Positions 3,495 through 31,371 of a DNA stretch of 31,432 nt are shown in pieces. The notes under the pieces are model-generated. The model searched no databases. It was given only the letters and a program-made list of their open reading frames with translations, and had not been told where the DNA came from. The first letter of the stretch is position 1. Every line of letters begins with the position of its first letter. Both the position numbers and the translations under genes were made by a program. The stretch comes from a virus: positions 1 to 31,432 of the IMG/VR virus record IMGVR_UViG_3300013131_000156, one strand, 5' to 3'.

Positions 3495-3522
3495 TAGTTT
3501 TCTGCATAAATACATAAAACTA
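3495..3522 (+). promoter_or_regulatory. T4-type late promoter inside an inverted repeat
   Basis: The late core CATAAATA lies at 3505-3512. It is flanked by TAGTTTT (3495-3501) and AAAACTA (3516-3522), a 7-bp perfect stem with a 14-nt loop that contains the core. With T4 geometry (core at -13 to -6) the start would be near 3518, giving an 82-nt leader for the fibre gene at 3600, whose ribosome site GGAG is at about 3590. The rest of the 110-base gap holds only an 8-bp palindrome (CCTATAGG, 3534-3541) and no gene. Confidence 0.6.
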
Positions 3523-3599
3523 GCACAAGTACGCCTATAGGGATATGGAACTGCAGGCAATTATAGTGTAAATTTAATATAATTTAAGCGGAGTATTCC

Positions 3600-6500
3600 A
3601 TGGCGGCATTGACCCGAATTTTTAACAACCAAATCTATAATAGCACAATTATAGGTTATCAAAAAATTGCAGCAGGTACTATCACAGGTAGCTTATTTGC
3701 AAGCAACGTAACAGTTCCAGGCGACTTACTAATTTCAGGTAACTTGTTTGTATTAGGGTCTAGCTCATATACAACAATCGCAAGTACTAACACCTATGTA
3801 AACGACCCATTGATCCTTATGAATAACGGTTTCAGTGGATCTAATAGTTACGACGAAGGTTTGATTTTTAATCGTGGTACTGACCAAAACCAAGCTATTA
3901 TTTGGAGTGAAGCATTTGATGAATTCCGCTTAATTGCAACAAACGAAACAGGTACCACATACGGTAATATAAATGCCACTGGCTTAGCAAGATTAAGTGT
4001 TGGTAGTTTTAACGTACCAGGCACAGCAAATATTGGTACTTTAGCAGTAACAGGTGCTATCTCTGGTGCAAGTTTAAATGTATCAGGCAATGTATTGGCA
4101 TCAACTGTGGGTGCTAGTTTCTTAACAGCTTCTACAGTAGCAGTTGGTAACATCGCCGCAGTTACAGTAGGCAATGTCGGAACACAATTTAATGGCGCCG
4201 CTGTTAACTTAAGCGGTAATATATTATCAGCAGGCGCAGTTCATAATAGTTTAACAGTGAATGGTAATGAATCAGTAACTGGTTACTTAAACGTAACTGG
4301 TAACGTAATGGCGGCTGTTATTACTGCGAGCCAATTGAACACAACTGGTAACGTACTAGCAACTGCTGGTGTATTTAATGGGTTAACAGTGAATGGTAAT
4401 GAAGCAGTGACTGGTTACTTAAACGTAACCGGTAATGTAATGACTGCCCAATTAAATGCAGGACAAGTCAACACAACTGGTAACGTACTAGCAACTGCTG
4501 GTGTATTTAATGGGTTAACAGTGAATGGTAATGAAGCAGTGACTGGTTACTTAAACGTAACTGGTAACATTATGGGCGCTGCTGGTATCCTTAACGGATT
4601 AACTGTAAACGGCAACGAAATTGTTACTGGTTATTTGGATGTAACAGGTAATGTTTTAGCAACAACGGTATTGGCACAATTAGTAACAGCGGACGACGCT
4701 ACGTTTGGTAATGTAGCCGCAGGATTCATCGGAAACACCGGTACAGCATACACTGGTGCAAGCATCAACTTAAGTGGTAACGTATTAGCTGCCGCAGGTG
4801 TTTATAATGCACTAACAGTGAATGGTAATGAATCAGTTACTGGTTATTTGAATGTAACTGGTAACGTATTAGCTGCCGCAGGTGTTTATAATGCACTAAC
4901 AGTGAATGGTAATGAATCAGTTACTGGTTATTTGAATGTAACCGGTAACGTAATGACGGCACAATTAAATGTGGGTCAAATTAATACCACAGGTAATGTA
5001 TTAGCAACAGCTGGTACATTTAATGCGCTCACAGTAAACGGGAATGAAAGTGTAACTGGTTACTTGAACGTAACAGGTAACATTTTAGGCGCTGCAGGAA
5101 CACTTAGTAGTTTAACGGTCAATGGTAACGAGTCGGTAACAGGTTACTTGAATGTAACAGGGAACATTTTAGGCGCTACTGGTACACTAGGTGTACTAGG
5201 CGTTAACAACAGCTTATGGGCTAATGCAAGTATAGCAACTACCGCACAAGGTATTGGTGCGATTGTTGTACCTAACGGTGGTATTAGCGTAGCAGGTGCA
5301 GCAAATATTGCAGGTGCAATCACTACAGCAGGGGCAGCACAATTTAATAATACAGTAACAGTTGGCGGCATCGAGTATATCACTAACACAACCAACGCCA
5401 CAGAAGGCACTGGCTCAAGCGGTGCACTGCAAATTAAGGGTGGCGCAAGTATTGCTCGAGATTTGCATATTGGTGGCAATCTTTACGCAAGTAATATCTT
5501 TACAACAACATATCAAGTTATCACAGTACAGGATCCGTTACTGTACTTAGATGCGGCTAACACATATCCGTACAACTTTGATATTGGTTTCTATAGCAAC
5601 TTTGTAGGGCCTAACCCGATTGACGACACTGGTAACGTTTACCAGCATACTGGGGTAGTCCGTGATGACACTGACAACACTTGGAAATTCTTCAGTAACG
5701 TTAGAACTGAACCTAGCGGTAGCGCGATTACATTTGATACTAATACAATTTACGACCCAGTTAAAGCAGGTAACTTACAGTTAACATACACTCAAGCTGC
5801 AACAAGCACCACAACAGGTGCCCTACAAGTCGCAGGTGGAGCAGGCATTGCAGGAACGGTGGTAGCTGGACAAATTAACAGCACAGGTAATGTACTAGGT
5901 CAAGCCGGCACATTTAACGCATTAACAGTAAACGGCAATGAATCAGTAACTGGTTACTTGAATGTAACTGGTAACGTACTAACAGCATCATTGAGCACCG
6001 GGCAAATTAATACAACAGGTAACGTACTTGCTACGGCGGGTACATTTAACGCATTAACAGTAAACGGCAATGAATCAGTAACTGGTTACTTGAATGTAAC
6101 TGGCAATATTATAGGTGCAGCTGGCACATTAAGCGGCTTAACTGTAAATGGTAACGAGTCAATAACTGGTTATCTAAACGTAACTGGTAATGTAATAGCA
6201 TCAGCAGGCACGTTTAATGGCTTAACTGTGAATGGAGCAACAACACAAAATGGTACTCTAACAGTATCAAGTGGATTCATTAATTCATCAGGCAATATTT
6301 TAGCTACTGCGGGCACATTTAATAGCTTAACTGTAAATGGTAATGAATCAGTAACTGGTTACTTGAATGTAACTGGTAACGTAATGGCCGCAGTAATTAC
6401 AGCAAGTCAATTAAATTCTACAGGTAATATTGAAGCTCAAAATGGTGTATTAAATGGCTTAACTGTAAATGGTAATGAATCAGTAACTGGTTACTTAAAT

Positions 6501-8408
6501 GTAACCGGTAATATTATGGGAGCAGTTGGCACGTTAAGTGGCTTAACTGTTAACGGAAATGAATCAGTAACTGGTTACTTGAATGTAACTGGCAATATTA
6601 TAGGTGCAGCTGGCACATTAAGTAGCTTAACTGTAAATGGAGTAGTAAACTCAACAGGTAACGTTTTAGCTACAGGCGGTGTGTTTAATGGCTTAACTGT
6701 AAATGGTAACGAGTCAATAACTGGTTATCTAAACGTAACCGGTAACGTAATAACTGCGCAAGTAAACGCAGACATAGTGGCCGCAACGGGAACTATCTGG
6801 GCAAATGCGTCAGTTGTGACTAACGGATTAGGTGTTGGTGCATTGGTTGCACCTAACGGTGGCGCATCATTTAACGGTAATATAATTGCAAACGAAAATG
6901 TATTTGCTGGGCCTGATGCATTTAATAAAGCGGTTGGCCTACAGGCTATAACATTTGCTGGGGTAGATGCAAATCAATACTATGTACAATCTGCACTACG
7001 AAATCTAGATAACAGAGGATCAGCCGACTTTGTTGCATACGGGTCTAGCGGAGCTGATAGTGATGGCTGGGCAGATTTTGGTTTCACCGGAAATGCGTTT
7101 GCTGACCCTTCGTATACTATTACAGGCCCAGACGACGGCTATTTTATTGTTCGTCCAGATGTGGGCGGTGGTAACTTAGTACTAGCAACAAGTGAAACAG
7201 GGGTCTTTAATGATATCGTCCTTGGTGTAGGAAGCTTCCTGTCAACAGCAGAAGTTGCGCGATTCCATGGTAACGTGGGTTCAAGCGGTAATGCGTGGAT
7301 CAAATATCAAACAGTTTCTACAACACCTAACAATGGCGCTTTACGTGTAGATGGTGGTGTGGGCATTAGAGGAAACATCCGTGTAGGCGGTGGTGCTGTA
7401 ATTAATAACAGCCAAACAGCTGATCCATTCCAAGTTAAAGGTGTTGCAACAACAAGCCTAATTTACGCCGACACTGCACAAGGTGCAGTAATTATTGGCG
7501 GTAGTAACGTTGCTCCACAACTAGGTAGTACACTGAAAATTAACGGCACAGATTCAATGTTATTACCAATTGGTAGCACAGGTCAACGTCCTGGTGCAAC
7601 AGGTAATATTGACCTTGCTGGTATGATTCGTTTCAATACTACTATCCAGAACATGGAGTTCTACGATGGTACACAATGGCAAACAGCAGGTAGTGTATTT
7701 ACAGTAATCAGTGATCGTCAATTTACAGGTAATGTTGGTGGCGGTTACGGTAACGTTGACGGTACCAACAAAAACTTTACTATTCAAGCTAACAGTACAA
7801 CATCTGGTACAATCGTAAGCATTAACGGTGTAATACAATTCCCAACACTTGCATATGACGTAAGTGGAACAACATTAACCTTTACTGAAGCACCTGCTCC
7901 AGATGACGTTATTGATGTTCGTGTATTAGCAACAACATCAACCATTGGTGCACTTGCTAACGGCAATGGTCTAAATCAAGTTATTGCAGGCAACGACGGG
8001 GTACAGATTTGGACAGGTACGAGTGCAACAGTTGAGCGTGTATTAGTCAACCAAGCAGGCGATGTTAACTTGTTAGACAACAACAAATTGACCTACACAC
8101 AAACTGCGACTAATATTGTAGCTAACAACACACCATATGTGATTGCTACATTTAGTACTGCTTCATATACTAGTGCAAAATACTTAATTAGTGCTAAGAA
8201 AGGTGCTACTAACGTTCAGACGATGGAAGCTGTGGTAGCGACAGATGGCACAAGTGCATATCTAACAACTTACGGTATTGTGAATAACGGGACCGACATG
8301 GGTGGATTAAGTGCTAACGTAGTAAGCGGTAATGTAAGAATATACTTTACAACTACATCAAACATGACTAATGCAAATGTTAAGGCATTTGGTACATATA
8401 TTGTTTAA
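3600..8408 (+). CDS. Giant repeat-containing tail fibre/virion protein (1602 aa)
   Basis: The start is supported by GGAG about 8 bases upstream. The N-terminal 200 residues (LASNVTVPGDLLISGNLFVLG and on) look like a beta-helical fibre shaft. A shaft with 15 copies of LTVNGNE(S/A/I)(V/I)TGYL(N/D)VTGN follows, in two blocks separated by a non-repetitive region (about residues 530-770). A second fibre-like region follows. Near residues 1340-1361 is a YDGTQW module like that of the upstream gene. The C-terminal 220 residues are paralogous to the end of the 481-residue protein. Composition and repeats fit an elongated trimeric fibre that contacts the host. The gene begins a late transcription unit. 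No chaperone or protease domain is evident. The fibre role is inferred; which T4 fibre it replaces is unknown. Confidence 0.75.
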   Translation: MAALTRIFNNQIYNSTIIGYQKIAAGTITGSLFASNVTVPGDLLISGNLFVLGSSSYTTIASTNTYVNDPLILMNNGFSGSNSYDEGLIFNRGTDQNQAIIWSEAFDEFRLIATNETGTTYGNINATGLARLSVGSFNVPGTANIGTLAVTGAISGASLNVSGNVLASTVGASFLTASTVAVGNIAAVTVGNVGTQFNGAAVNLSGNILSAGAVHNSLTVNGNESVTGYLNVTGNVMAAVITASQLNTTGNVLATAGVFNGLTVNGNEAVTGYLNVTGNVMTAQLNAGQVNTTGNVLATAGVFNGLTVNGNEAVTGYLNVTGNIMGAAGILNGLTVNGNEIVTGYLDVTGNVLATTVLAQLVTADDATFGNVAAGFIGNTGTAYTGASINLSGNVLAAAGVYNALTVNGNESVTGYLNVTGNVLAAAGVYNALTVNGNESVTGYLNVTGNVMTAQLNVGQINTTGNVLATAGTFNALTVNGNESVTGYLNVTGNILGAAGTLSSLTVNGNESVTGYLNVTGNILGATGTLGVLGVNNSLWANASIATTAQGIGAIVVPNGGISVAGAANIAGAITTAGAAQFNNTVTVGGIEYITNTTNATEGTGSSGALQIKGGASIARDLHIGGNLYASNIFTTTYQVITVQDPLLYLDAANTYPYNFDIGFYSNFVGPNPIDDTGNVYQHTGVVRDDTDNTWKFFSNVRTEPSGSAITFDTNTIYDPVKAGNLQLTYTQAATSTTTGALQVAGGAGIAGTVVAGQINSTGNVLGQAGTFNALTVNGNESVTGYLNVTGNVLTASLSTGQINTTGNVLATAGTFNALTVNGNESVTGYLNVTGNIIGAAGTLSGLTVNGNESITGYLNVTGNVIASAGTFNGLTVNGATTQNGTLTVSSGFINSSGNILATAGTFNSLTVNGNESVTGYLNVTGNVMAAVITASQLNSTGNIEAQNGVLNGLTVNGNESVTGYLNVTGNIMGAVGTLSGLTVNGNESVTGYLNVTGNIIGAAGTLSSLTVNGVVNSTGNVLATGGVFNGLTVNGNESITGYLNVTGNVITAQVNADIVAATGTIWANASVVTNGLGVGALVAPNGGASFNGNIIANENVFAGPDAFNKAVGLQAITFAGVDANQYYVQSALRNLDNRGSADFVAYGSSGADSDGWADFGFTGNAFADPSYTITGPDDGYFIVRPDVGGGNLVLATSETGVFNDIVLGVGSFLSTAEVARFHGNVGSSGNAWIKYQTVSTTPNNGALRVDGGVGIRGNIRVGGGAVINNSQTADPFQVKGVATTSLIYADTAQGAVIIGGSNVAPQLGSTLKINGTDSMLLPIGSTGQRPGATGNIDLAGMIRFNTTIQNMEFYDGTQWQTAGSVFTVISDRQFTGNVGGGYGNVDGTNKNFTIQANSTTSGTIVSINGVIQFPTLAYDVSGTTLTFTEAPAPDDVIDVRVLATTSTIGALANGNGLNQVIAGNDGVQIWTGTSATVERVLVNQAGDVNLLDNNKLTYTQTATNIVANNTPYVIATFSTASYTSAKYLISAKKGATNVQTMEAVVATDGTSAYLTTYGIVNNGTDMGGLSANVVSGNVRIYFTTTSNMTNANVKAFGTYIV
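4251..6746 (+). repeat. Fifteen in-frame fibre repeats in two blocks
   Basis: The coding repeat LTVNGNExxTGYLxVTGN occurs eight times in 4251-5164 and seven times in 5922-6746. Two degenerate copies (LTVNGATTQNG and LTVNGVVNSTGN) lie in the second block. Spacers such as STGQINTTGNVLATAGTF also recur. Some copies are identical over long stretches of DNA while others have drifted at third positions. This suggests repeated duplication and recombination within the gene. Confidence 0.9.
4776..4943 (+). repeat. Perfect 84-bp tandem duplication in the fibre gene
   Basis: Two adjacent 84-bp units (4776-4859 and 4860-4943) encode the same 28 residues starting GNVLAAAGVYNAL. They differ only at the last base (ACT versus ACC). 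The unit length keeps the frame. The near-zero divergence marks it as the most recent expansion of the repeat block. Confidence 0.9.
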
Positions 8409-8417
8409 GGGTGATTA

Positions 8418-12414: not shown

Positions 12415-12436
12415 TACATATTCCTATTACGTCTAG

Positions 12437-12444
12437 TATTTATC
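12437..12444 (-). promoter_or_regulatory. Late promoter core for gp14-gp15-Nudix operon
   Basis: On the - strand this reads GATAAATA. With T4 late geometry transcription would begin at about 12431, leaving a 17-nt leader that contains TAGGAA ahead of the gp14 ATG. Unlike most late cores here, no convincing flanking inverted repeat is seen. Confidence 0.7.
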
Positions 12445-12449
12445 AAGTC

Positions 12450-12478
12450 TTGACAACCTACCAAATTGATGTTATACT
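12450..12478 (+). promoter_or_regulatory. Consensus sigma70 promoter, divergent from the late promoter
   Basis: TTGACA (12450-12455), a 17-bp spacer and TATACT (12473-12478) form a near-perfect host sigma70 promoter. The +1 expected seven bases past the -10 box is 12485, exactly the A of the next ATG. It is read by host RNA polymerase and so probably acts early. The -35 box is only six bases from the - strand late core, so the two may compete. Confidence 0.8.
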
Positions 12479-12484
12479 ACGAAA

Positions 12485-12754
12485 ATGAATAATCAAATAC
12501 AAACAAGTATGGATTGGGCAAAGGTGCAAACAAACATAGAAGCACCTGTGTATAAAATGAAAAGATACAACCATGAAATGTTTAAGGTAAGTAGAAACAT
12601 TGGGTACATGATTAGTGCGCTAAGTAAAGAAGAAGTAAACTGTCGTAAATTGGGCAAGCAAACAGAAAGACACAAAGAAATGCTTGACAAAATAAACGAA
12701 GAGATAGCAAACTATGAACGTATGATAACTTTTGCTGTATTATTAGCGGGATAA
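12485..12754 (+). CDS. Small unknown protein, probably early and leaderless
   Basis: The 89-residue product is unrecognised. It is charged and helical, with a likely coiled coil over residues 40-80 (SKEEVNCRKLGKQTERHKEM and following). It has a short hydrophobic end (FAVLLAG). No Shine-Dalgarno sequence precedes the ATG, and the sigma70 promoter places +1 on the ATG itself. An ATG at 12509 also lacks a ribosome site. The gene heads a three-gene unit on the + strand between the inverted gp14-gp15 block and gp13. Function unknown. Confidence 0.65.
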   Translation: MNNQIQTSMDWAKVQTNIEAPVYKMKRYNHEMFKVSRNIGYMISALSKEEVNCRKLGKQTERHKEMLDKINEEIANYERMITFAVLLAG

Positions 12755-12759: not shown

Positions 12760-12966
12760 ATGGTAATTATGAGTATTGAAGAAGCATACCGCGCAGTGCG
12801 TGACTATGGTGAAATGAATGAACACTATAGTTTATGGTCAGCGGTTAAGTGTATGGAAGATGCGTGGGATGATCTAGACTCATATGATCGTACAGCATAT
12901 AAAATGGTTAAACGAGAATTATCAAATCTAGTAACAAAAACAGTAGAGGAAAAACATGGCAATTAA
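12760..12966 (+). CDS. Small acidic protein of unknown function
   Basis: The 68-residue protein begins five bases after the previous stop, with GGGA eight bases before the ATG. A second in-frame ATG at 12769 would give a product starting MSIEEAYRAVRDYG. The sequence is rich in aromatic and acidic residues (MEDAWDDLDSYDRTAYKM) and probably all-helical. It overlaps the next gene by 11 bases, which supports co-translation. No family is recognised. Confidence 0.6.
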   Translation: MVIMSIEEAYRAVRDYGEMNEHYSLWSAVKCMEDAWDDLDSYDRTAYKMVKRELSNLVTKTVEEKHGN

Positions 12967-14164
12967 AATTGACGGCGCAAAGAAAAAAACTAAGGTAGTA
13001 GCACGAGACCCTATTTTCTTAGATGAAAAAGCAGTGGGTACAGAACCAGTCTGGGACGCACAACGAGCAATAGAGTTTACAGACGAGGTATTTGACCATA
13101 ACTTCCGTAAAAGTATGCGCTACTATAACTATTTCTACTCTACTAAAGATCTTAAGAAATATCTGGTAGAGTGGTTGCGCACACATGAAGGCAAGGACGG
13201 AGAGTACCATCACTTAGATAAGAAAACTATTGACTATTATGCCAAAACTAGAGATAATTTAACTCCATTTACTGCCTGTGCCATCGCAAAAGCACATACA
13301 CAAGGCATGCCCCTACGTGATCGTCATGTAGAGTATCTACTTAAAACAGTTAAAGAAGTTATCAAACTGCAAGAAGAGATAGTAGAAGAAGATGTTCCCG
13401 CTGATGACAGCAAGAAGGCACCTAAGACTGACGTAAAGGTGCCTACAATACAAGATCGCATGAACGCAATAGCAGACAAGCACCAGCTACACTTTTTAGA
13501 ACTAGAAGATCAACTGTTTGCTGGTGAAACTGTGGACCCTAAAGCCTACGAGTATCTAATTGGCAAAAATGTAGCACCTGCTACTTTAGCACGTATTCTT
13601 AGTCCTTTTGAACGTAGCCGAACAGAGTTTGCTGAGGCACGCACTAGTAAAGATGAAGATACTAAAGATGCGTACGGGCATTTAAAAACTGCCGACTATA
13701 AACGCTACGATGCGTTTTATACTGCGCTATTTGATGGTTTTGCTCAATACGGCCAAGTTAAGAAAGCAACTAAGAAAGCGGCTGTACGCAAACCGCCAGC
13801 AAAAGAAAAACTGGTTGCTAAACTTAAGTATCTAAAAACAGACACCGCAACTAAAGCAGTAAGTATTAATCCTGTTGATATTATTGGCTCTCAAATATTG
13901 TGGGTTTACAATATTAAGACACGCAAACTGGGCAAATATGTAGCTGAAGAATACAGTGCGCTTAATGTTAAAGGTACTACTATTACAGGATATAGTGAAA
14001 GTAAGAGCGTAAGTAAAACTCTACGTAAACCTGAAGTACAAATAAAAGAGTTTTTAGGTGCAAGTAAAGTTGATTTGCGTAAGTTCCTTGAAAACATCAA
14101 AGCCACCGAAGTAAAATTGAACGGGCGCATTAACCAAGATACAATCTTGCTAAAAGTTCAGTAA
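12956..14164 (+). CDS. Conserved marine T4-like phage protein, function unknown
   Basis: This 402-residue protein is preceded by GAGGA. Its N-terminal 150 residues are helical with many aromatics (FRKSMRYYNYFYSTKDLKKY). A short acidic linker (EEDVPADDSKKAPKTD) leads to a second helical region, then a lysine-rich hinge (KKATKKAAVRKPPAKEKL, about 275-292). The C-terminal 110 residues form a compact domain with ILWVYNIKTRKLGKY, then KTLRKPEVQIKEF and a final EVKLNGRINQDTILLKV. Proteins with this ending are widely conserved in marine T4-like phages without an assigned role. It lies in the sigma70-driven unit, so it is probably made early; the basic hinge would allow nucleic-acid binding, but that is speculation. 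Confidence 0.65.
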   Translation: MAIKIDGAKKKTKVVARDPIFLDEKAVGTEPVWDAQRAIEFTDEVFDHNFRKSMRYYNYFYSTKDLKKYLVEWLRTHEGKDGEYHHLDKKTIDYYAKTRDNLTPFTACAIAKAHTQGMPLRDRHVEYLLKTVKEVIKLQEEIVEEDVPADDSKKAPKTDVKVPTIQDRMNAIADKHQLHFLELEDQLFAGETVDPKAYEYLIGKNVAPATLARILSPFERSRTEFAEARTSKDEDTKDAYGHLKTADYKRYDAFYTALFDGFAQYGQVKKATKKAAVRKPPAKEKLVAKLKYLKTDTATKAVSINPVDIIGSQILWVYNIKTRKLGKYVAEEYSALNVKGTTITGYSESKSVSKTLRKPEVQIKEFLGASKVDLRKFLENIKATEVKLNGRINQDTILLKVQ

Positions 14165-14170
14165 ACGAAA

Positions 14171-14210
14171 TTATCCTGTTATCAACGATAAATACTTGGT
14201 AACAGGATAA
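14171..14210 (+). promoter_or_regulatory. Late promoter in hairpin loop that masks the gp13 ribosome site
   Basis: TTATCCTGTTA (14171-14181) and TAACAGGATAA (14200-14210) form a perfect 11-bp stem with an 18-nt loop. The late core GATAAATA occupies loop positions 14187-14194. The expected late start is about 14200, the first base of the right arm. The gp13 ribosome site AGGA (14204-14207) is inside the right arm. Read-through RNA from the upstream sigma70 unit would fold and hide the site, while late RNA would lack the left arm and be free. No U-tract follows, so a terminator role is less likely. Confidence 0.75.
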
Positions 14211-14215
14211 TTTAC

Positions 14216-15130
14216 ATGTCATTATTACCAGCAAACGTATCAGCACAAAGCGGCTTAACAGCTAATCTTAGCTTAACCACAGAAAGCCTCTATAATCCAG
14301 TAACTGGCACTGGTGCAGGCCCTATTGCTTTTGATGCTAATCTACAAGCACAATTAACCACAGTACAAAGCCTGCAGAACGATATCACTGACTACATTCG
14401 ATTGCGTTTGGGTTATGGTATGATTGATGTTGAGGCTGATAAAGAACATTTTGATATGGGGATTAAACAAGCATTGATCCGTTATCGTCAAAAGAGTTCA
14501 AACGCAGTTGAAGAAAGTTATGCGTTCTTAGATATCTATCCTGAAACACAAGAATATATTCTCCCTAACAATATTATGGATGTTAAACAGATTTATCGAC
14601 GTGGTATTGGTAGCGTTACAGGTACAACTGCTAGCCAATTTGAACCATTTGCAAGCGGCTATTTAAACACTTATATGTTAGTAGCTGGCCGTGTTGGTGG
14701 GTTAACTAACTACGAATTATTTGTAGATTATCAAAAACTTGCTATGCGTATGTTTGGCGGCTTTATGAACTTCTACTGGAACAAAGTTACTAAGAAACTC
14801 ACTTTAGTTCGCAAACAACCATTCCAGGGTGCTAATAATACAGCACAATCTGAAACAGTTATGTTACATGTGTTTAATGTTAAACCAGATATTGTATTGT
14901 TAAACGATCCGCAGGCATTTCCATGGATTCAAGACTATGCGTATGCACTAACATCGATTAGTGTTGGTCAAGCACGTGAAAAATTTGCATCTATTGCTGG
15001 CCCACAAGGTGGCACGACCCTAAACGGTACAGCTATCAAAGCAGAAGGGCAGGCCTTGCTAGATAAATTAGACGAAGAAATCAAAAATTATGTAGACGGT
15101 GGTCAACCATTAACTTGGATTATGGGCTAA
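14216..15130 (+). CDS. 13: gp13-like neck protein
   Basis: The protein has 304 residues, close to T4 gp13 (309). A diagnostic segment begins NDITDYIRLRLGYGMIDVEA (about residues 55-74) and continues DMGIKQALIRYRQKSS. It corresponds to the gp13 N-terminal helix bundle that recognises the connector. A strand-rich region (YAFLDIYPETQEYILPNNI) and long helices toward the end follow. gp13 joins gp14 to close the head portal after packaging and receive the tail. The ATG follows AGGA by eight bases, and this site lies in the stem described above. Its usual partner gp14 is on the opposite strand 1.8 kb away. Confidence 0.8.
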   Translation: MSLLPANVSAQSGLTANLSLTTESLYNPVTGTGAGPIAFDANLQAQLTTVQSLQNDITDYIRLRLGYGMIDVEADKEHFDMGIKQALIRYRQKSSNAVEESYAFLDIYPETQEYILPNNIMDVKQIYRRGIGSVTGTTASQFEPFASGYLNTYMLVAGRVGGLTNYELFVDYQKLAMRMFGGFMNFYWNKVTKKLTLVRKQPFQGANNTAQSETVMLHVFNVKPDIVLLNDPQAFPWIQDYAYALTSISVGQAREKFASIAGPQGGTTLNGTAIKAEGQALLDKLDEEIKNYVDGGQPLTWIMG

Positions 15131-15136: not shown

Positions 15137-15165
15137 TTGACCTTCTAGTAGTAAATCTATAAAAT
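15137..15165 (+). promoter_or_regulatory. Sigma70-type promoter for dNMP kinase
   Basis: TTGACC (15137-15142), a 17-bp spacer and TAAAAT (15160-15165) fit a host sigma70 promoter. The expected start near 15172 leaves an 18-nt leader with a GGGG ribosome site. This fits early expression of a nucleotide-metabolism gene placed among late genes. Confidence 0.6.
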
Positions 15166-15189
15166 AGTAATATCAAATTGGGGGTTTCA

Positions 15190-15870
15190 ATGAGTCGTAT
15201 CATCGGCATTTGCGGGTTCATCGGGTCGGGCAAAGATACAGTTGCTGACTATCTAGTTAATTTTCATGGTTTTAAAAGAGAAAGTTTCGCTAACAGTTTA
15301 AAAGATGCTGTGAGTCATGTTTTTGGTTGGGATAGAGATCTTTTAGAAGGTCGGACCAAACAAAGCCGTGAGTGGCGAGAAACTAAAGACGAGTGGTGGA
15401 GCAAACGTCTCAAACGAGATATCACACCACGTTGGGTTCTACAGTACTGGGGCACAGATGTAATACGTAAAGGGTTCCATAACGATATGTGGGTGGCTAG
15501 TTTAGAAAACCGGCTACGTCAGGCACAAGACGATATTGTAATTACAGACTGTCGCTTTCTTAATGAAATTAAAGCAATCAAAGCAGCAGGCGGACAGGTT
15601 ATCCGCATTAAACGTGGTCCTGAACCAGAATGGTATGATGCGGCTAAAGACTATAACAAAGGTATGAAGCGCATTGGCTGGGCCTTGGGTAAGGATATCT
15701 TAGATAAAGCCGGAGTTCACGCAAGTGAATATAGCTGGGTTGGTAGTAAGTTTGACTCTGTACTTGATAATGATAGTACCTTAGATGAGTTGTTTGAGCA
15801 AGTAGAAGGGTTCTTAGCGACTAAAAATCTGGAACTAAATCCCCTTGACGCCAACCAAGTCCTTCTCTAG
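15190..15870 (+). CDS. Deoxynucleoside monophosphate kinase (T4 gp1-like)
   Basis: The start chosen is the ATG at 15190, five bases after GGGG. The TTG twelve bases upstream is less likely. Residues 3-14 (IIGICGFIGSGK) form a P-loop followed by DTVADYL. Later come LQYWGTDVIR, and IVITDCRFLNE, which is the LID/Walker-B type region of the phage dNMP kinase fold. T4 gp1 phosphorylates dTMP, dGMP and hydroxymethyl-dCMP with ATP for phage DNA synthesis in the cytoplasm. The length (226) is near T4 gp1 (241). Specificity cannot be read here. Its 3' end overlaps the convergent Cys-rich gene by 50 bases. Confidence 0.8.
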   Translation: MSRIIGICGFIGSGKDTVADYLVNFHGFKRESFANSLKDAVSHVFGWDRDLLEGRTKQSREWRETKDEWWSKRLKRDITPRWVLQYWGTDVIRKGFHNDMWVASLENRLRQAQDDIVITDCRFLNEIKAIKAAGGQVIRIKRGPEPEWYDAAKDYNKGMKRIGWALGKDILDKAGVHASEYSWVGSKFDSVLDNDSTLDELFEQVEGFLATKNLELNPLDANQVLL

Positions 15871-16171
15871 CAACTTCGTACTGACAGTTAGCACAGATTG
15901 TTTTTAAGTTAGTTAGACTGTTATTATTAAGATCACCATCGATATAGTAAACAAATAGTTGATCTTTATACTTTGCCTTAAAGCCGCACTTTTCACAGTG
16001 CGGTTTCTTTTTATATCCAGCTTTATGCCAACCAGGTACCTGCGGCGGCAAACGTTTCTTTTTACGAATACAACTGTCACAACGACTCCTATAATATGTC
16101 TTACCCCACATCTTATAGTTGACTGCACAGGGCTTTTTACCACAAACCTCACATAATTTTCTGTATTCCAT
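15821..16171 (-). CDS. Cys-rich HNH-like protein with catalytic His replaced
   Basis: Starting at the ATG (16171) the product is 116 residues; a TTG at 16186 would add five residues (MAKYH). Two Cys pairs in the N-terminal half (CEVCG and CDSCIRKKK) and two in the C-terminal half (CEKCG and ICANCQ) suggest two zinc ribbons. The second encloses LFVYYIDGDLNNNSLTNLKT. This matches the HNH core xxHHIDGDxxNNxxxNLxxLC except that both histidines are tyrosines. Homologues occur in marine T4-like phages. The Tyr-Tyr change would remove the general base of an HNH nuclease, so a DNA-binding role without cleavage is more likely. It is transcribed against its neighbours, and no clear promoter is seen. 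Confidence 0.7.
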   Translation of the reverse strand: MEYRKLCEVCGKKPCAVNYKMWGKTYYRSRCDSCIRKKKRLPPQVPGWHKAGYKKKPHCEKCGFKAKYKDQLFVYYIDGDLNNNSLTNLKTICANCQYEVAREGLGWRQGDLVPDF

Positions 16172-16212: not shown

Positions 16213-16260
16213 CACTTTAAACCACTGATTTAACCAAATAATAATAAATAGTTTAAAGTG
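16213..16260 (+). promoter_or_regulatory. Late promoter for gp18 in an inverted repeat
   Basis: CACTTTAAAC (16213-16222) pairs with GTTTAAAGTG (16251-16260), a 10-bp perfect stem. The core AATAAATA (16243-16250) is the last part of the 28-nt loop and touches the right arm. The expected start is about 16256. The resulting 31-nt leader contains AGAGGA ahead of the sheath ATG. The left arm is partly duplicated next to itself (ACCACTGATTTAAC), which allows an alternative fold. Confidence 0.65.
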
Positions 16261-22345: not shown

Positions 22346-22365
22346 TAGTATTAAATACAATACTA
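22346..22365 (+). promoter_or_regulatory. Hairpin with degenerate late core at gp16 start
   Basis: TAGTATT (22346-22352) and AATACTA (22359-22365) form a 7-bp stem with a 6-nt loop. ATTAAATA (22350-22357) keeps TAAATA but misses two bases of the core. The predicted start (about 22363) is two bases before the gp16 ATG, whose A is in the stem. No Shine-Dalgarno sequence is visible for gp16. Confidence 0.4.
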
Positions 22366-22862
22366 TGACACAAAAACTATCCGAATTATTTAACTTGCCT
22401 CCTATTGAAGGTACTACTCCTGAGGAAGCAGAATTAACCATTGAAGAAAATCGTGAAATGATTGAAGCAGTAGACGATGCTATTGATAAGATTGATGCTG
22501 CATTGCCAATGGTGGGTGACCTAGACACCAGCGATAAAGAGTTAGATGAACTAAGTGATCTAGCCAAAGAAAAGTTTCAAGATTTAATTGATCTAGGAAT
22601 GAATGTAGAAGCTCGCTTTAGCGGGCACATCTTAGCCACAGCAGGCACACTGCTGGGCCATGCTATTACAGCTAAACAAGCCAAGCTAGATAAAAAGCTA
22701 CGTATGGTTGATCTACAACTTAAAAAGGCACGTTTAGACCTGCAAGTTGAGCAGGCAAATAAAAAATCAGATGGCGACAAGATAATTGACGCAGAAGACG
22801 GTCAGGGTGTAGTACTAGACCGTAACGAATTACTTAACCAATTACTTAACAAGAAAAGCTAG
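22365..22862 (+). CDS. 16: gp16-like terminase small subunit
   Basis: This 165-residue acidic, all-helical protein begins with an LSELFNLPPI segment. It has a long central helical hairpin (RFSGHILATAGTLLGHAITA flanked by DLAKEKFQDLIDLGMNVEA and KLDKKLRMVDLQLKKARLDL). The C-terminal tail is short and acidic. Length and layout match T4 gp16 (164), which forms rings that regulate the gp17 motor. Here it is not adjacent to gp17: about 4.5 kb with five other genes and a homing endonuclease lie between. The start lacks a ribosome site; translation may depend on coupling to gp4 (22-base gap) or on a nearly leaderless late transcript. Confidence 0.7.
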   Translation: MTQKLSELFNLPPIEGTTPEEAELTIEENREMIEAVDDAIDKIDAALPMVGDLDTSDKELDELSDLAKEKFQDLIDLGMNVEARFSGHILATAGTLLGHAITAKQAKLDKKLRMVDLQLKKARLDLQVEQANKKSDGDKIIDAEDGQGVVLDRNELLNQLLNKKS

Positions 22863-22883
22863 TGTTTTTGATAAATAACACTA
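22860..22883 (+). promoter_or_regulatory. Late promoter in inverted repeat after gp16
   Basis: TAGTGTT (22860-22866) pairs with AACACTA (22877-22883), a 7-bp stem with a 10-nt loop. The core GATAAATA is at 22870-22877. The expected start is 22883, giving an 18-nt leader with GGAT for the gene at 22901. The left arm begins with the gp16 stop codon TAG. Confidence 0.65.
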
Positions 22884-22900
22884 TATATGGATCTTAACTT

Positions 22901-23500
22901 ATGAAGAATTTTTTAGAATATCTAAGCGAAACTCAAAAGATTTATGAATTTCGTATTAAAGTAGCTAACTGCGATCCTGCAGATAAGCTAGACTATTTAA
23001 AAGCTGGTTTAGAAGGTTACCAAGTTGAAAGTTTAGGAGTAGCTAAACGTTTGCCTATTAAAGCGAATGACATTGACTTTCCAAGCATTCAAAACTGTGA
23101 AATCTTTTTACTGGATGCTAGCCTTAAATATCCAGTAAACGATGCACAGTTGCGTGGTATCGTTGCTGAACGTTTAGGTTGCAGTCAATCACAGGTTGTT
23201 GTTGTTCCTGCTGCCAACCCAGAAGAACAATGGCGCTGGAATCCAGACAATGGTGAAATTAAAGAGTTCAAACAAGGTGAAGATGTACTAACACAACCAC
23301 TTCCAGAAGCTACAGCTGAACAAAAGGCCGCAAGCAAGTTTTATTCAGAAGCAGGTACTATTCTAAAAGAGTTAAACAAACCAGCAGAGTTTGAGATTGC
23401 AGGTAAAGACACTACTGTTGGTGGTGCTAAAGACCCTGCATACGGTAAAACAACAAATGATGTAGCAGTTGGTACAAAAAGCCCAGTAAAAGGACAATAA
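22901..23500 (+). CDS. Putative internal head protein with capsid-targeting-like N terminus
   Basis: The 199-residue protein starts MKNFLEYLSE-T. This resembles the T4 capsid-targeting sequence MKTYQEFIAE-A, which is cut by the prohead protease after (L/I)-x-E. After it a compact alpha/beta domain (FRIKVANCDPADKLDYLKAG, then LPIKANDIDFPSIQNCEIFL, then RGIVAERLGCSQSQVVVVP) looks ferredoxin-like. The last 70 residues are polar and extended, ending in TTNDVAVGTKSPVKGQ. Similar proteins exist in marine T4-like phages without known role. Location between gp16 and gp17 and the N terminus suggest packaging in the prohead; this is inference. The next gene follows after three bases. Confidence 0.6.
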   Translation: MKNFLEYLSETQKIYEFRIKVANCDPADKLDYLKAGLEGYQVESLGVAKRLPIKANDIDFPSIQNCEIFLLDASLKYPVNDAQLRGIVAERLGCSQSQVVVVPAANPEEQWRWNPDNGEIKEFKQGEDVLTQPLPEATAEQKAASKFYSEAGTILKELNKPAEFEIAGKDTTVGGAKDPAYGKTTNDVAVGTKSPVKGQ

Positions 23501-23503
23501 GAA

Positions 23504-25852: not shown

Positions 25853-25853
25853 T

Positions 25854-25949
25854 ATGGCAGTAAAGCTACACGTAGAATATTTTTTAGTATGTTTATGTGT
25901 AGCTTTAGTAAGAAGCTTACGCAAAATTTGTAAACTATTTAAACTATGA
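25854..25949 (+). CDS. Possible 31-residue membrane microprotein
   Basis: An ATG one base after the 782-residue gene's stop opens 31 codons, ending in TGA within the ATGA overlap with the next gene. The peptide (MAVKLHVEYFLVCLCVALV then a basic tail RSLRKICKLFKL) has one hydrophobic helix and a positively charged C terminus. Exact tiling between neighbours is the main support. A clear ribosome site is lacking, so it may instead be an unused spacer. Confidence 0.4.
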   Translation: MAVKLHVEYFLVCLCVALVRSLRKICKLFKL

Positions 25950-26332: not shown

Positions 26333-26333
26333 C

Positions 26334-26561
26334 GTGGACGAATTAGATCAAATTAAACAGCTTGCTGGGGTAACTCAAAACGTAGGAAAACTGCAAGAAT
26401 ACAAAGGCTACGGTAGCGTTAAAACTGATGGTAGTAACATGAGTATTACTGCTAATGAAAAGATTCAACACCAAAACAGCAATAACATCCAACCTGGTAC
26501 ACAGGAATGGTTTAGATTGTGGTTTGCGAAAACAGGAATCACCGGAGAAACTCCCTTCTAA
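26334..26561 (+). CDS. Small protein with IxxLAG motif, GTG start
   Basis: The chosen start is GTG at 26334, one base after the previous stop and six bases after GGAG. An in-frame ATG at 26274 would require a 59-base overlap and has no ribosome site. The 75-residue product starts MDELDQIKQLAGV and ends with PGTQEWFRLWFAKTGITGET. The N-terminal motif matches ones in the 782- and 776-residue proteins. The Trp/Phe-rich end resembles small conserved proteins in marine T4-like phages. Function unknown. Confidence 0.6.
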   Translation: MDELDQIKQLAGVTQNVGKLQEYKGYGSVKTDGSNMSITANEKIQHQNSNNIQPGTQEWFRLWFAKTGITGETPF

Positions 26562-26581
26562 ACTTAACTTCGCAAAACTAG

Positions 26582-26611
26582 TTCTAACAGATAAATAACT
26601 ATATGTTAGAA
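26582..26611 (+). promoter_or_regulatory. Late promoter in inverted repeat covering the HNH start codon
   Basis: TTCTAACA (26582-26589) and TGTTAGAA (26604-26611) form a perfect 8-bp stem. The core GATAAATA (26590-26597) begins the 14-nt loop. With the core at -13 to -6, +1 is 26603, the A of the ATG. Two bases of the start codon are in the right arm, so read-through RNA would hide it. T4 homing endonuclease genes such as I-TevI and mobE use a similar late-promoter/hairpin arrangement. Confidence 0.7.
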
Positions 26612-27331
26612 AACAAATACACCTCTTATTATAACAATATTATCAACAAAGCTAAAAATCGTCTATTAGATGGGTATTATGAAACCCATCATATTATTCC
26701 TAAATCGCTCGGCGGCACCAATCTTAAAGAAAATCTTGTAAACCTAACAGCCCGTGAACATTTTATTTGTCATCTTCTACTTACTAAAATGTATGAAGGT
26801 GATGCTAAAAGTAAAATGATACATGCTGCTTGGGCTATGACAACATTAGAAAATGAATTTCAACAAAGATACAAAATAACATCAAAAATATATGAATCTC
26901 TGCGTATTGAATATGCAGAACTTGTTTCTAATAGATTATCCGGAAAACCTGGAAGAAAACATTCTGAGGAAACTAAAAAGAAATTGTCTTTAGCGATGGC
27001 AGGCAAATCAAATGGCCCAATGAGTGAAGAATCTAAAAGAAAACTATCCGAATCAATGAAGGGTAAAAACGTAGGAAAAAAACGTACACTAGAACAAATT
27101 CAACAACAGTCACTACGACAAACTGGTAAGAAAAGAGCACCGCATTCTGAAGAAACAAAAGAAAAATTACGACTAGCTAATCTTGGAAAAAAGAAAGCCC
27201 CCGACACTATAGAGACTCGTGTTAAAAAATCATTGGCATCAAAAGGCAAAACTAAATCGCCTGGCCAGGTTGCAAAGCAACGAGAATCATTGTTGAATTA
27301 TTACAAACAAAAAAAGATGGGACATAAGTAA
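26603..27331 (+). CDS. Free-standing HNH homing endonuclease with NUMOD3 repeats
   Basis: The 242-residue protein has an N-terminal HNH core YYETHHIIPKSLGGTNLKEN (25-44) followed by NLTAREHFICHLLL. It includes H29-H30, N44, H53 and H57. Four NUMOD3-type DNA-binding motifs follow (about 118-134, 138-155, 179-196, 199-215), each of the form HSEETKKKLSLAMAGK. The end is lysine-rich. Such enzymes cut a specific site in related phage genomes, so that repair copies the gene across. It lies between the 75-residue gene and gp17, five bases before the gp17 ATG. The cut site is therefore probably in or near gene 17 of endonuclease-free relatives. No Shine-Dalgarno sequence is seen. Confidence 0.85.
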   Translation: MLENKYTSYYNNIINKAKNRLLDGYYETHHIIPKSLGGTNLKENLVNLTAREHFICHLLLTKMYEGDAKSKMIHAAWAMTTLENEFQQRYKITSKIYESLRIEYAELVSNRLSGKPGRKHSEETKKKLSLAMAGKSNGPMSEESKRKLSESMKGKNVGKKRTLEQIQQQSLRQTGKKRAPHSEETKEKLRLANLGKKKAPDTIETRVKKSLASKGKTKSPGQVAKQRESLLNYYKQKKMGHK

Positions 27332-27335
27332 ATGT

Positions 27336-28904
27336 ATGGCAACAGCAAAAGGTACAGATAACGTCCTTGTTAAAAAGCCCCATCAACAAACGGCATTTAC
27401 ACAAGAACAATTACAAGAATTTGCAAAATGCGCAGACCCAGTAACTGGCCCTGAGTATTTTATGAGTAACTACTTCTACATACAACACCCCACTAAGGGA
27501 CGTATGTTGTATCAACCTTTTGACTACCAAAAACGCCTAATCGATACATATCACAACTACCGCTATAGTATATCGCTAATGCCCCGACAAACAGGTAAGT
27601 CAACAAGTGCCGCAGGTTACTTGTTATGGTACGCTATGTTCGTGCCAGATAGTACTATCCTAATTGCCGCACACAAATTTACAGGCTCACAAGAAATTAT
27701 GCAACGTATTCGTTACGCTTATGAAAGCGTACCGGACTTTATACGTGCTGGTGCAGTGAGTTACAACAAAGGTAGTATTGATTTTGACAATGGTAGTCGT
27801 ATTGTAAGTGCTACAACAACAGAAAATACAGGTCGTGGTATGAGTATTTCATTACTATACTGTGACGAGTTCGCATTCGTTAGACCTACCATAGGCCGAG
27901 AATTTTGGACTTCAATTAGTCCCACACTAGCAACTGGTGGTAAATGTATTATTACATCAACGCCTAACAGTGATGAAGACCAGTTTGCTCTCCTATGGAA
28001 AGGTGCTAACAAGTGCTTTGACGAATTTGGAAACCCAACTGAAGTGGGTGTTAACGGATTTAAATCATATCGTAGTTACTGGAACGAACACCCCGACCGC
28101 GATGAAAAATGGGCTGCTGAACAGCGAGCACAGTTAGGTGATGAACGTTTCCGCCGAGAGATGGACTGCGAATTCATTATCTGGGATGAGACCTTAATTA
28201 ATCCTACTACACTTATTGAGATGTCTGGCTTAGATCCTATAGAGCGCCAAGGTCAAGTTCGTTGGTACAAGAAACCTGAAGCGCAGTATACCTATGTTGT
28301 CGCTATGGACCCAAGTTTGGGCACAGGGGGCGATCCTGCAGCTATACAAATCTTTGAACTACCTACATTTAAACAAATTGGCGAGTGGCAACATAATAAA
28401 ACACCAGTGCAACAACAAGTGGGTATTTTGACTGAAATTGTTCGTTATTTAAATGAAACAGTAAGCCAAAATAATATCTATTACAGTGTTGAGAACAATA
28501 CCTTAGGAGAAGCTGCACTTATCTGTATCAATGAAATTGGTGAAGAGAACATCAAAGGTATTTTCTTAAGTGAACCCAAACGTGCAGGTAGTGCTCGTAG
28601 ATATCGTCGTGGATTTAATACAACTAACAGCACAAAAATTTCAGCTTGTGCTAAACTTAAAAATCTAATTGAAAGTAAGCGTATGACTATTGTAAGTAAA
28701 CCGCTACTATCAGAACTTAAAACTTTTGTAGCCAATGGGCCTAGCTTTGCAGCCAAGCCGGGTGAAACAGATGACCTGGTTATGGCACTAGTATTAATAG
28801 TGCGCATGTCTATGCTCTTACAAAGTTTTGACAGTCAAATTGACTCTACAATGAAAGACAGTCTCGAAGATGTAATTGAGCCTATGCCTTTCTACATTAT
28901 GTAG
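27336..28904 (+). CDS. 17: gp17-like terminase large subunit
   Basis: The 522-residue protein has the full motor-nuclease layout. The Walker A motif is PRQTGKST (83-90), Walker B is LLYCDE (173-178), and the coupling motif is ITSTPN (206-211). The C-terminal RNase H-type nuclease has acidic residues D325 (VVAMDPSLGTGGD), E386 (YYSVENN) and D479/D480 (GETDDLVMAL). It packages DNA into the prohead with ATP and cuts the concatemer. It is shorter than T4 gp17 (610), mainly at the N terminus, but starts properly with the YQPFDYQKRLID region before Walker A. The ATG at 27336 is five bases after the homing endonuclease stop; an ATG at 27332 is out of frame. Ribosome site is weak, so coupling to the endonuclease gene or use of upstream transcripts is likely. 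Confidence 0.92.
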   Translation: MATAKGTDNVLVKKPHQQTAFTQEQLQEFAKCADPVTGPEYFMSNYFYIQHPTKGRMLYQPFDYQKRLIDTYHNYRYSISLMPRQTGKSTSAAGYLLWYAMFVPDSTILIAAHKFTGSQEIMQRIRYAYESVPDFIRAGAVSYNKGSIDFDNGSRIVSATTTENTGRGMSISLLYCDEFAFVRPTIGREFWTSISPTLATGGKCIITSTPNSDEDQFALLWKGANKCFDEFGNPTEVGVNGFKSYRSYWNEHPDRDEKWAAEQRAQLGDERFRREMDCEFIIWDETLINPTTLIEMSGLDPIERQGQVRWYKKPEAQYTYVVAMDPSLGTGGDPAAIQIFELPTFKQIGEWQHNKTPVQQQVGILTEIVRYLNETVSQNNIYYSVENNTLGEAALICINEIGEENIKGIFLSEPKRAGSARRYRRGFNTTNSTKISACAKLKNLIESKRMTIVSKPLLSELKTFVANGPSFAAKPGETDDLVMALVLIVRMSMLLQSFDSQIDSTMKDSLEDVIEPMPFYIM

Positions 28905-28915
28905 ATAAATAATGT
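28894..28915 (+). promoter_or_regulatory. Late promoter in inverted repeat across the gp17 end
   Basis: ACATTAT (28894-28900) pairs with ATAATGT (28909-28915), a 7-bp stem with an 8-nt loop. The core GATAAATA (28904-28911) starts on the last base of the gp17 stop TAG and runs into the right arm. The expected +1 is 28917, the A of the next ATG. A competing palindrome CTACAT-T-ATGTAG (28892-28904) overlaps the left arm, so two folds are possible. Confidence 0.65.
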
Positions 28916-28916
28916 T

Positions 28917-31247
28917 ATGAGAGAAATTAATAAAATCGCAGAAGGCCTATTTGAGAAAATTCGTGACCGATTTGAAGATGTTAGTTTGGGTGATGAAAAT
29001 GCACATGCTACACAAAATCCAGAAGATGCACGTTTTTTCAATTTTGACTATGTAGTTGATGGTCACAACTACGGCAATATTACACTTAGCGTCATTGATG
29101 AAACAAGTCTGAAAGTTTATTTTAGTAAAAACATCAGTCACGACCTAGATGACGAGCAACGCAAGCATTGGTACAGTTTCCTTAGAGAACTGCGTGAATT
29201 TGCTAAACGTAATCTACTAAGTTTTGAGCCACGTGATATTACACGGTCAACTCTTAAACACCGCGATATCCAACAAATTTCTAAAGCTGATAACACATAC
29301 GATAAAGACGAAGTTATTGGCGAAAGTCGCTTATATGGTACTAGCCGTAGTAGCTATGAAAATGATGGCCCTGTGCGTATTATTATCCGCCACAGCGATC
29401 ATATTAACCCAGAATCTCGTGGAAGTCGTAGCCGTAAAATCCGTGCTATGTACTTAGAAAACGCAGAAGGCGAACGTCTAAAACTACCACACAACAGTCT
29501 ACGCTATGCTCGTGCTATGGCCCGTCATTTACAAGAAGGCGGCAGCATCGGTGATGAGTTTGGACAGCACATTACAGAAATTGCAGAAGAGTGTAGCAAG
29601 TTAAAACCATTTAAATCTGCTATGATTCGCAGAGTATTTGAAGATGGCGAAACGCAGGCAATGGTAGAAGCTGCATTTGAATACCACGGCCTACTAAAAG
29701 ACACACTAGGTAAAATGAGCGGTCGTAAGGGCTACCAACAATGTAAAGAACAGTTTGTTGCTACTAGTACCAGCTATGTTCCAGAAGAAGATTTTGATGC
29801 TGACAGTGTCAGAGAACGTTTTGTAAAACGTACATATAATGATCGCATGAATGATGCGCTACCTATTGTATACAAGGCTTATAACATGAAGAAAACTAAT
29901 AAAATGGCAGAAGCCTTTGAAGGCTGGGCAAACAATGTAGCAGAAAGCTGGGACGAGGATGAAGAAGGCGTTAAACAATGGGGTATAGAACCTATTAACG
30001 TTGATGACTTGGCTGATTTATTTGCTGAAGAATTACCACTAGGTGTCGATGCTGTAAATGCTATTAATGCTGTCAGTGGTGTTATTAATAGTAACGAATT
30101 GGATGAAGTACTCTTGCACACAAGTAAAGCAAATCCAGAATTGGACGCTCGTGATGTAATTTTATCATGGTTGGAATCAAATGTACCAGCAGTGTTCCAA
30201 GAATTACAAAATGAAATTAACGAATCAGAATCCGGAGATTCACCATTTGACCGTATGAGCAGAGCGGAATTATTAGATTATTTAAACCTAAACCCACTAA
30301 AAGCACAAAATATTCCAAACGAAGAACTACGTGCTGCCGCAGAAGAACGCTCGCTCGATATGACAGAGGGTAATACCTACGGTAGTTACGGTGCAGTATA
30401 TGAAGATGATGAAGATCAAGTGGAAAGTATCACTTCAGCAATCGTACGTAGAATATTAAACAATATTGGCCAACACAGTGAATTATTAAGAAAAGCAGGA
30501 CCAGACGGTGTACTTAATGCTGCACGTGACGTAGCAAGTTTTCACGCACCGGTAGAAGAATTGGGCTCGAGTGACATCAGCAACATGGTTCGTGAAGTAT
30601 ACCTTGAAGTTGGTGTAGACTACCCGGAACTAAATGAAACTCCGTTACGTCAAGCAAGAACACCAAGTAAAAAAGCCCGCGACGCAAAATATTATGATTA
30701 CCTAGCAAGAACGTTAGGTGAAAATTTAGAATCAATGGCTCCAGCAGATAGTTCTAGCCCTTTAACTCACGCACATGAAGCATACTGTGATGCTTGTGAT
30801 CGCACAGCAGACCAATGTGTTTGTGATGATGAACTAGATGAAGGTCGTGTAAAAGAAGTTAGTATAGATCTTGAAGAACTGACAGATGAAGAATTCAAGG
30901 CAAAATATGGAAAAACCAAAGAAGAAGTAAAACAAGCACTGTCAGAAGGTCTATCAGGCTTACAAAAATTAGGCGCTGGCGCGGCATTAATTGGTGCATT
31001 ATCAACTAACGCATACTTAGATAATAAAGCAGTAGAATCGAGTCCGCAAGTACAAAAACTAGAACAACTATATCAGCAAGCACTAGCAAATGATGACGTT
31101 CAAAAAGCAAATGAATTAGAAGATAGAATTGAAAATCTTAAGGCACGCATTGAACTAGGCAAAGGTGAAGTACTAGATAAAGACGGTAACCCGATCGAAC
31201 CAAAATACGAAAGTATACAAGATATTAGAACTCTAGCAGGCTTATAG
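28917..31247 (+). CDS. Large acidic virion-type protein with Cys cluster
   Basis: The N terminus MREINKIAE-G fits a capsid-targeting peptide with (I)-x-E cleavage. Residues 40-130 (FNFDYVVDGHNYGNITLSVI, then LRELREFAKRNLLSFEPRDI) and 180-215 (RKIRAMYLENAEGERLKLPH) are conserved in marine T4-like phages. The middle is acidic and helical. The C-terminal part has C624-x2-C627-x6-C634-x-C636 and a Gly/Ala hydrophobic segment LQKLGAGAALIGAL (682-695). A coiled coil (LEQLYQQALANDDVQKANEL) and a final DIRTLAGL ending at the last residue follow. This shares three elements with the 782-residue protein. No Shine-Dalgarno sequence precedes the ATG. Probable internal or ejected head protein; role unproven. 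Confidence 0.55.
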   Translation: MREINKIAEGLFEKIRDRFEDVSLGDENAHATQNPEDARFFNFDYVVDGHNYGNITLSVIDETSLKVYFSKNISHDLDDEQRKHWYSFLRELREFAKRNLLSFEPRDITRSTLKHRDIQQISKADNTYDKDEVIGESRLYGTSRSSYENDGPVRIIIRHSDHINPESRGSRSRKIRAMYLENAEGERLKLPHNSLRYARAMARHLQEGGSIGDEFGQHITEIAEECSKLKPFKSAMIRRVFEDGETQAMVEAAFEYHGLLKDTLGKMSGRKGYQQCKEQFVATSTSYVPEEDFDADSVRERFVKRTYNDRMNDALPIVYKAYNMKKTNKMAEAFEGWANNVAESWDEDEEGVKQWGIEPINVDDLADLFAEELPLGVDAVNAINAVSGVINSNELDEVLLHTSKANPELDARDVILSWLESNVPAVFQELQNEINESESGDSPFDRMSRAELLDYLNLNPLKAQNIPNEELRAAAEERSLDMTEGNTYGSYGAVYEDDEDQVESITSAIVRRILNNIGQHSELLRKAGPDGVLNAARDVASFHAPVEELGSSDISNMVREVYLEVGVDYPELNETPLRQARTPSKKARDAKYYDYLARTLGENLESMAPADSSSPLTHAHEAYCDACDRTADQCVCDDELDEGRVKEVSIDLEELTDEEFKAKYGKTKEEVKQALSEGLSGLQKLGAGAALIGALSTNAYLDNKAVESSPQVQKLEQLYQQALANDDVQKANELEDRIENLKARIELGKGEVLDKDGNPIEPKYESIQDIRTLAGL

Positions 31248-31272
31248 TAAAATTACAATTATAATTTCGATT

Positions 31273-31300
31273 AAAAAGGACCTACGGGTCCTTTTGTTTT
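31273..31300 (+). terminator. Rho-independent terminator with UACG tetraloop
   Basis: AAAAGGACC (31274-31282) and GGTCCTTTT (31287-31295) form a 9-bp stem capped by a TACG loop, a stable UNCG-type tetraloop. GTTTT follows. The flanking A and T runs suggest it may work in both directions. It ends the gp17/776-residue transcription unit. Confidence 0.9.
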
Positions 31301-31330
31301 GGCTAAAATTTGGCTATATTGCTCTTGTGA

Positions 31331-31371
31331 GATAAATAATTATAACGTATAGTATATAAATGCTAGACGTT
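31331..31371 (+). promoter_or_regulatory. Tandem late promoters, one in a hairpin loop
   Basis: GATAAATA (31331-31338) predicts a start at 31344. That is the first base of an imperfect stem pairing 31344-31354 with 31361-31371 (11 positions, one mismatch, one G-U). The 6-nt loop TATAAA belongs to a second core TATAAATG (31355-31362), which predicts a start at 31368. RNA from the first promoter would carry a 5'-terminal hairpin; RNA from the second would not. Confidence 0.55.

Follow-up and report, generated by a model that had tools for sequence, protein, structure and literature searches.

Gene Content and Late Promoter Core

The window, by which we mean the whole stretch of 31,432 nucleotides analyzed here, is part of a T4-like jumbo myophage genome, for which searches with DNA and protein sequences gave relatives such as PA5oct, GAP32, Munch, 121Q, and RaK2, and hundreds of its relatives are present in IMG/VR. 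PHROG matches were obtained for the tail sheath, tail tube, tail sheath stabiliser, terminase large subunit, neck protein (head-tail adaptor Ad2), and deoxynucleoside monophosphate (dNMP) kinase. The neck gene is preceded by three ORFs on the same strand, the last of which matches phrog_11903, a family of unknown function (table 1).

Table 1. Features of the window discussed in the text.
Feature	Position	Strand	Remarks
7-bp stem, chance level	3495..3522	+	core 3506, P=0.14
Sigma-70-type promoter TTGACA-17-TATACT	12450..12478	+	proposed early promoter of the operon reading into the neck gene
Three ORFs 5' of the neck gene, proposed early operon	12485-12754, 12760-12966, 12956-14164	+	ORF list
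Left arm of neck hairpin, AAATTATCCTGTTA, anti-Shine-Dalgarno	14168..14181	+	14-bp stem; 5' of the predicted late start
Late core GATAAATA in hairpin loop	14187..14194	+	RNA start predicted at ~14200 from T4 spacing
Right arm of neck hairpin, TAACAGGATAATTT, with Shine-Dalgarno AGGA (14204-14207)	14200..14213	+	pairing kept in 56/62 orthologs
Neck protein gene, T4 gp13-like head-tail adaptor Ad2	14216..15130	+	phrog_211, E=6e-32; tblastn to annotated neck proteins
Weaker sigma-70-like site TTGACC-17-TAAAAT, 5' of the dNMP kinase gene	15137..15165	+	2 mismatches
dNMP kinase gene	15178-15870	+	
Intrinsic terminator, kinase/sheath boundary	15981..16006	+	10-bp stem and T run
10-bp sheath stem (core 16243-16250)	16213..16260	+	not conserved, 4/62 orthologs; median pairing energy -6.0
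7-bp stem, chance level	22860..22883	+	core 22871, P=0.07; pairing significant in 2/61 orthologs
8-bp stem around HNH homing endonuclease core	26582..26611	+	right arm includes start codon 26603-26605
7-bp stem, chance level	28894..28915	+	core 28905, P=0.07; pairing significant in 5/78 orthologs
Imperfect stem 3' of the genuine core (31331-31338)	31344..31371	+	expected to remain in late RNA
Predicted leaderless late starts	28905-28919, 22352-22367, 26590-26605		also orthologs in L001-L240

Across 160 related loci and the window, GATAAATA occurs at 206 sites just upstream of genes and at none inside ORFs, and CATAAATA, AATAAATA, and TATAAATA are likewise enriched just upstream of genes. A conserved core thus lies 5' of late genes, as expected of T4-type, gp55-dependent late promoters (TATAAATA). 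This distribution bears out the reading of the core as a T4-like late promoter made in the first-pass annotation, and (G)ATAAATA is, on this evidence, the real late core of the window phage. The same ATAAATA late motif is described for CBB and GAP32 in the available portion of the CBB report (PMC5259590), which counts 35 sites upstream of structural genes in CBB and reports a gp55-like sigma factor for that phage. Unlike the motif given there, the window clade favors G at the first core position (GATAAATA); that portion of the report makes no mention of hairpins alongside the motif. Within ~45 bp at 12436-12478, a sigma-70 promoter on the plus strand and a late core (GATAAATA) on the minus strand stand back to back, separating minus-strand structural genes from a plus-strand operon.

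Inverted Repeats around the Cores

Seven inverted repeats had been described around late cores of the window, and as strings of letters all seven exist. For each ATAAATA core, the longest surrounding stem was compared with 3000 dinucleotide-preserving shuffles of the flanks. Three stems stand above chance, those of the neck (core 14188, 14 bp, P=0.0003), sheath (core 16244, 10 bp, P=0.002), and HNH (core 26591, 8 bp, P=0.006) genes, but the three 7-bp stems do not (table 1), and the seventh was misassigned. In effect, the genuine core GATAAATA at 31331-31338 falls outside the stem at 31344-31371, which is thus rejected as a loop enclosing a late core. The neck repeat, first given as 11 bp at 14171-14210, is present but truly extends over 14168-14213, with 14 bp. 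The gene 3' of the 3495-3522 stem starts at 3600, 77 nt further downstream. No stem above the shuffles was found at cores 20360 (P=0.99) and 31332 (P=0.70) or at the minus-strand core 12443 (P=0.99).

Taken together, the nine cores of the window give a combined P of 2e-5, rising to 0.002 without the neck core and to 0.03 when both neck and sheath are excluded. Non-promoter TAAATA sites of the window carry stems as well (8 and 10 bp at 22352 and 23125). RNA folding gave z values of -5.1 for the neck, -3.1 for the HNH gene, -2.3 for 31320-31400, -1.9 for both 28880-28940 and 3480-3540, -0.2 for 22845-22915, and -0.1 for the sheath. Apart from the neck hairpin and probably that of the endonuclease, the window stems are chance or lineage-specific occurrences.

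A Hairpin That Would Mask the Neck Gene on Read-Through RNA

The right arm of the neck element is AACAGGATAA, including a Shine-Dalgarno at the correct distance, and the left arm is complementary to it. The late start predicted from T4 spacing coincides with the first base of the right arm, in agreement with the earlier suggestion that late RNAs usually begin in or next to this arm. For read-through RNA the folding energy is -20.7 kcal/mol (z=-5.1), with the Shine-Dalgarno buried as in masking hairpins, whereas RNA from 14200 would lack the left arm and has no fold.

The hairpin is kept in 56 of 62 unique ortholog leaders by a pairing-energy test, and a few orthologs lack it (L236, L210, and L151). 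In a MAFFT alignment of 25 representative leaders, 79% of the cells are paired, against 38-56% when the arms are slid, and 34 cells show double changes against 15 in shuffled alignments. Changes on both sides affect 12 of the 16 pairs. MAFFT misplaces a few divergent leaders (L210, L236, L153, and L207), so the covariation counts should be lowered rather than raised by this. Folding, conservation, and covariation strongly support, for the neck gene, the proposal that late RNA would lose the fold while read-through RNA keeps it.

A candidate source of transcription into the neck gene from upstream is the promoter at 12450, which has one mismatch to the consensus and a TG before the -10 element and is the only plus-strand site of the window with at most one mismatch. 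Of 54 distinct loci, 50 have a sigma-70 site with 0-1 mismatches upstream of the neck gene on its own strand, compared with 17 of 54 on the reverse strand; none was found directly in front of the neck gene in 62 leaders. No plus-strand terminator was called between the 12450 promoter and the neck gene, and at 57 loci none was found within 500 nt 5' of the neck gene.

We propose that early RNA from the 12450 promoter would traverse the three upstream genes and continue into the neck gene. Pairing of the left with the right arm would bury the Shine-Dalgarno on this long RNA, and thus neck protein would not be made early. A gp55-like sigma factor would recognize GATAAATA in the loop late in infection, and RNA would begin at ~14200; lacking the left arm, it would leave the Shine-Dalgarno open and neck protein could be made. 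The transcription start, the translational block, the timing, and the use of a gp55-like sigma are the predicted parts of this scheme.

Distant Jumbo Phages and Competing Explanations

Among distant jumbo phages, neck stems masking the Shine-Dalgarno (P<0.05) occur in 11 of 14 leaders with a co-directional upstream gene (GAP32, CBB, XbC2, Kaldavass, Hallingskeid, Munch, fENko, 121Q, SD-2_S15, RaK2, and XaC1). BF, a twelfth co-directional case, has a like stem of 8 bp (P=0.10). PA5oct and Cassandra, which belong to one genus, have a co-directional upstream gene yet no masking neck stem. Among the phages with a neck hairpin the arm sequences are unrelated and the geometry is the same, with the left arm abutting or overlapping the core. 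No masking neck stem was found in the four phages with a divergent upstream gene (Atu_ph07, Phosso, SCTP-2, and Vibrio 2.275). By lineage, grouped by hand and with the window clade and BF counted as positive, the hairpin is present in 8 of 9 co-directional lineages versus 0 of 4 divergent ones, the latter control being these four phages (P=0.007). RAS14 and XacN1, whose neck-like domains lie within large fused genes, and the unannotated SRB7757 were left out of the comparison. The annotated neck starts of 121Q and RaK2 place a likely Shine-Dalgarno (GAGGTGCT) inside the ORF (L244:4935 and L246:4932), and the true start in both is probably the next ATG downstream.

The neck leader thus combines core, stem, covariation, an upstream promoter sequence without an intervening terminator, and recurrence in distant jumbo phages with a co-directional upstream gene. 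We put at roughly 85% the probability that 14168-14213 is a T4-type dual-use leader, masking the neck gene on read-through RNA and leaving it open on late RNA.

An inverted repeat with the core in its loop could instead act at the DNA level, as a cruciform or operator aiding the binding of a late sigma factor, co-activator, or repressor at the late promoter, much as the I-TevI operator of T4 overlies its late promoter (PMC2988022). We consider this role, also raised in the first-pass annotation, quite improbable, because the repeat is missing from most promoters that share the core, and the neck repeat is absent beside divergent genes. Moreover, the arms vary among lineages with Shine-Dalgarno pairing retained, and an upstream element is lacking in T4 late promoters (PMC2988020). 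Slightly less probable again is translational coupling, with ribosomes that finish the upstream gene at 14164 opening the hairpin so that the neck gene is translated in step. The upstream stop of the window does lie only 3 nt 5' of the left arm; in relatives, however, the stop and the neck start are separated by widely differing distances (mostly 46-76 nt), and a late promoter within the loop would serve no purpose in coupling.

Hairpins at Other Late Genes

The dual-use arrangement of the neck leader is not shared by the other late genes of the window clade. As a class, the GATAAATA promoters of relatives show no enrichment of stems (mean 5.01 bp vs. 4.91 bp in shuffles), and the long stems, when sorted by downstream gene, belong mostly to the neck gene. 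Among unique ortholog leaders tested by pairing energy (P at most 0.05), stems are at background for the sheath (4/62), tube1 (1/84), tube2 (4/67), 22901 gene (2/61), 22365 gene (5/65), portal-like gene (5/78), minus-strand gene (3/50), and terminase (2/31). Ribosome-binding-site masking by the sheath stem was considered and rejected in the window clade: the Shine-Dalgarno is outside the arm and the left arm is missing in most orthologs. In five large genomes, a significant masking stem accompanies 32 of 382 putative late promoters (~8%) against 19 of 813 control starts (P=3.8e-6), an excess seen only in this five-genome pool with control starts, since a first survey of one genome gave none by proportion at P<=0.05. 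The claim that stems around cores are a general design, common to all late promoters of the window phage, is therefore refuted and scarcely credible, with these eight late genes at background, the promoters of relatives at shuffled level, and ~8% of late promoters affected, despite a combined P in the window that stays at 0.03 even without neck and sheath. Hairpin promoters are a minority restricted to few genes, as in T4.

The hairpin-bearing genes of the five genomes include those for neck, sheath, and tail tube proteins, GIY-YIG-like and HNH endonucleases, a non-specific endonuclease, and a KTSC-domain protein. The KTSC-domain genes of Munch, RaK2, and GAP32 (L281:1432, L294:844, and L331:18078) carry near-identical hairpins that mask the Shine-Dalgarno and enclose the late core in their loop (ACTCCAAGG ... 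CCTTGGAGT). An expected proximity of hairpin promoters to sigma-70 consensus sites fell short of significance over the five genomes (7 of 21 vs. 70 of 295 within 3 kb, P=0.23).

The boundary between kinase and sheath offers a further comparison. Sigma-70-like sites with at most two mismatches precede the kinase gene in 49 of 69 leaders, and the terminator between the two genes is present at 40 of 60 sheath loci and in none of the shuffles. RaK2-like phages lack a terminator between kinase and sheath, and their sheath genes carry masking stems instead (e.g., AATCCTCCAA-TAAATA ... TTGGAGGATT). As a tentative rule, one that we ourselves think rather doubtful, an early or middle operon running into a late structural gene of jumbo T4-like phages might be insulated either by a boundary terminator or by a masking hairpin whose loop, or loop edge, bears the late promoter; these two devices would swap between lineages, and the hairpin would be lost when the upstream gene is inverted.

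Endonuclease Hairpins and Predicted Leaderless mRNAs

The HNH stem of the window is the same in the close relatives L009 and L011, and would probably mask the AUG of a predicted leaderless late mRNA. Homing-endonuclease-like genes with masking hairpins around late cores were also observed in the related genome G002 (L267; 7847, 9495, and 13890) and in L257 (17832); they are of NUMOD3, SegE GIY-YIG, and HNH types, as in T4.

At some late genes the ATG follows the core TAAATA by only 4-8 nt, with a mode of 5; at this distance, T4 spacing would put the RNA start on the A of the AUG. A Shine-Dalgarno-like motif is found in 2 of 162 short (<=8 nt) leaders, as opposed to 356 of 424 leaders of 15-45 nt. 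Leaderless late mRNAs are thus predicted in the window's clade, and the core within the 28894-28915 stem would serve such a start for the portal-like gene at 28917. The short spacing occurs at 15 genes in G002 and is all but missing in Munch, RaK2, GAP32, and PA5oct. These predicted leaderless mRNAs may be more novel than the neck hairpin.

Comparison with Known Systems

Our literature search, with subscription papers mostly outside its reach, found no jumbo-phage reports of such hairpins but did find the precedents of T4, namely the masking hairpins of genes e, soc, 49, and I-TevI (PMC3014915, PMC2988022). With the neck leader, the T4 trick of masking the ribosome sites of late genes on early RNA would reach jumbo phages and, in the neck gene, a structural gene; support comes from covariation over many relatives and from a natural control, the divergent neighbors without a hairpin. 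Such structures are dispensable for late promoters generally, and where they occur they could offer a sequence-only means of detecting genes whose early expression a phage avoids.

In T4-like phages, a late promoter and a masking hairpin precede the homing endonuclease genes I-TevI, I-TevII, I-TevIII, segB, and Aeh1 mobE (PMC2988022). The hairpins of the 26603 HNH gene and of the G002 endonuclease genes resemble these, with the difference that the 26603 arm would cover an AUG, on an mRNA predicted to be leaderless, rather than a Shine-Dalgarno. At T4 e (lysozyme) and soc, the long early RNA hides the Shine-Dalgarno, the late promoter is in the DNA of the structure's 5' strand, and the late RNA is free of the masking structure (PMC3014915). 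The neck leader appears to work likewise, the Shine-Dalgarno being hidden on long RNA and the left arm removed by the late start, but here the gene is that of a jumbo-phage neck protein (head-tail adaptor), the arms are unrelated, and the case is known from sequence alone. Read in this way, the neck hairpin is the mechanism of T4 genes e, soc, and I-TevI at new genes, the mechanism itself being known.
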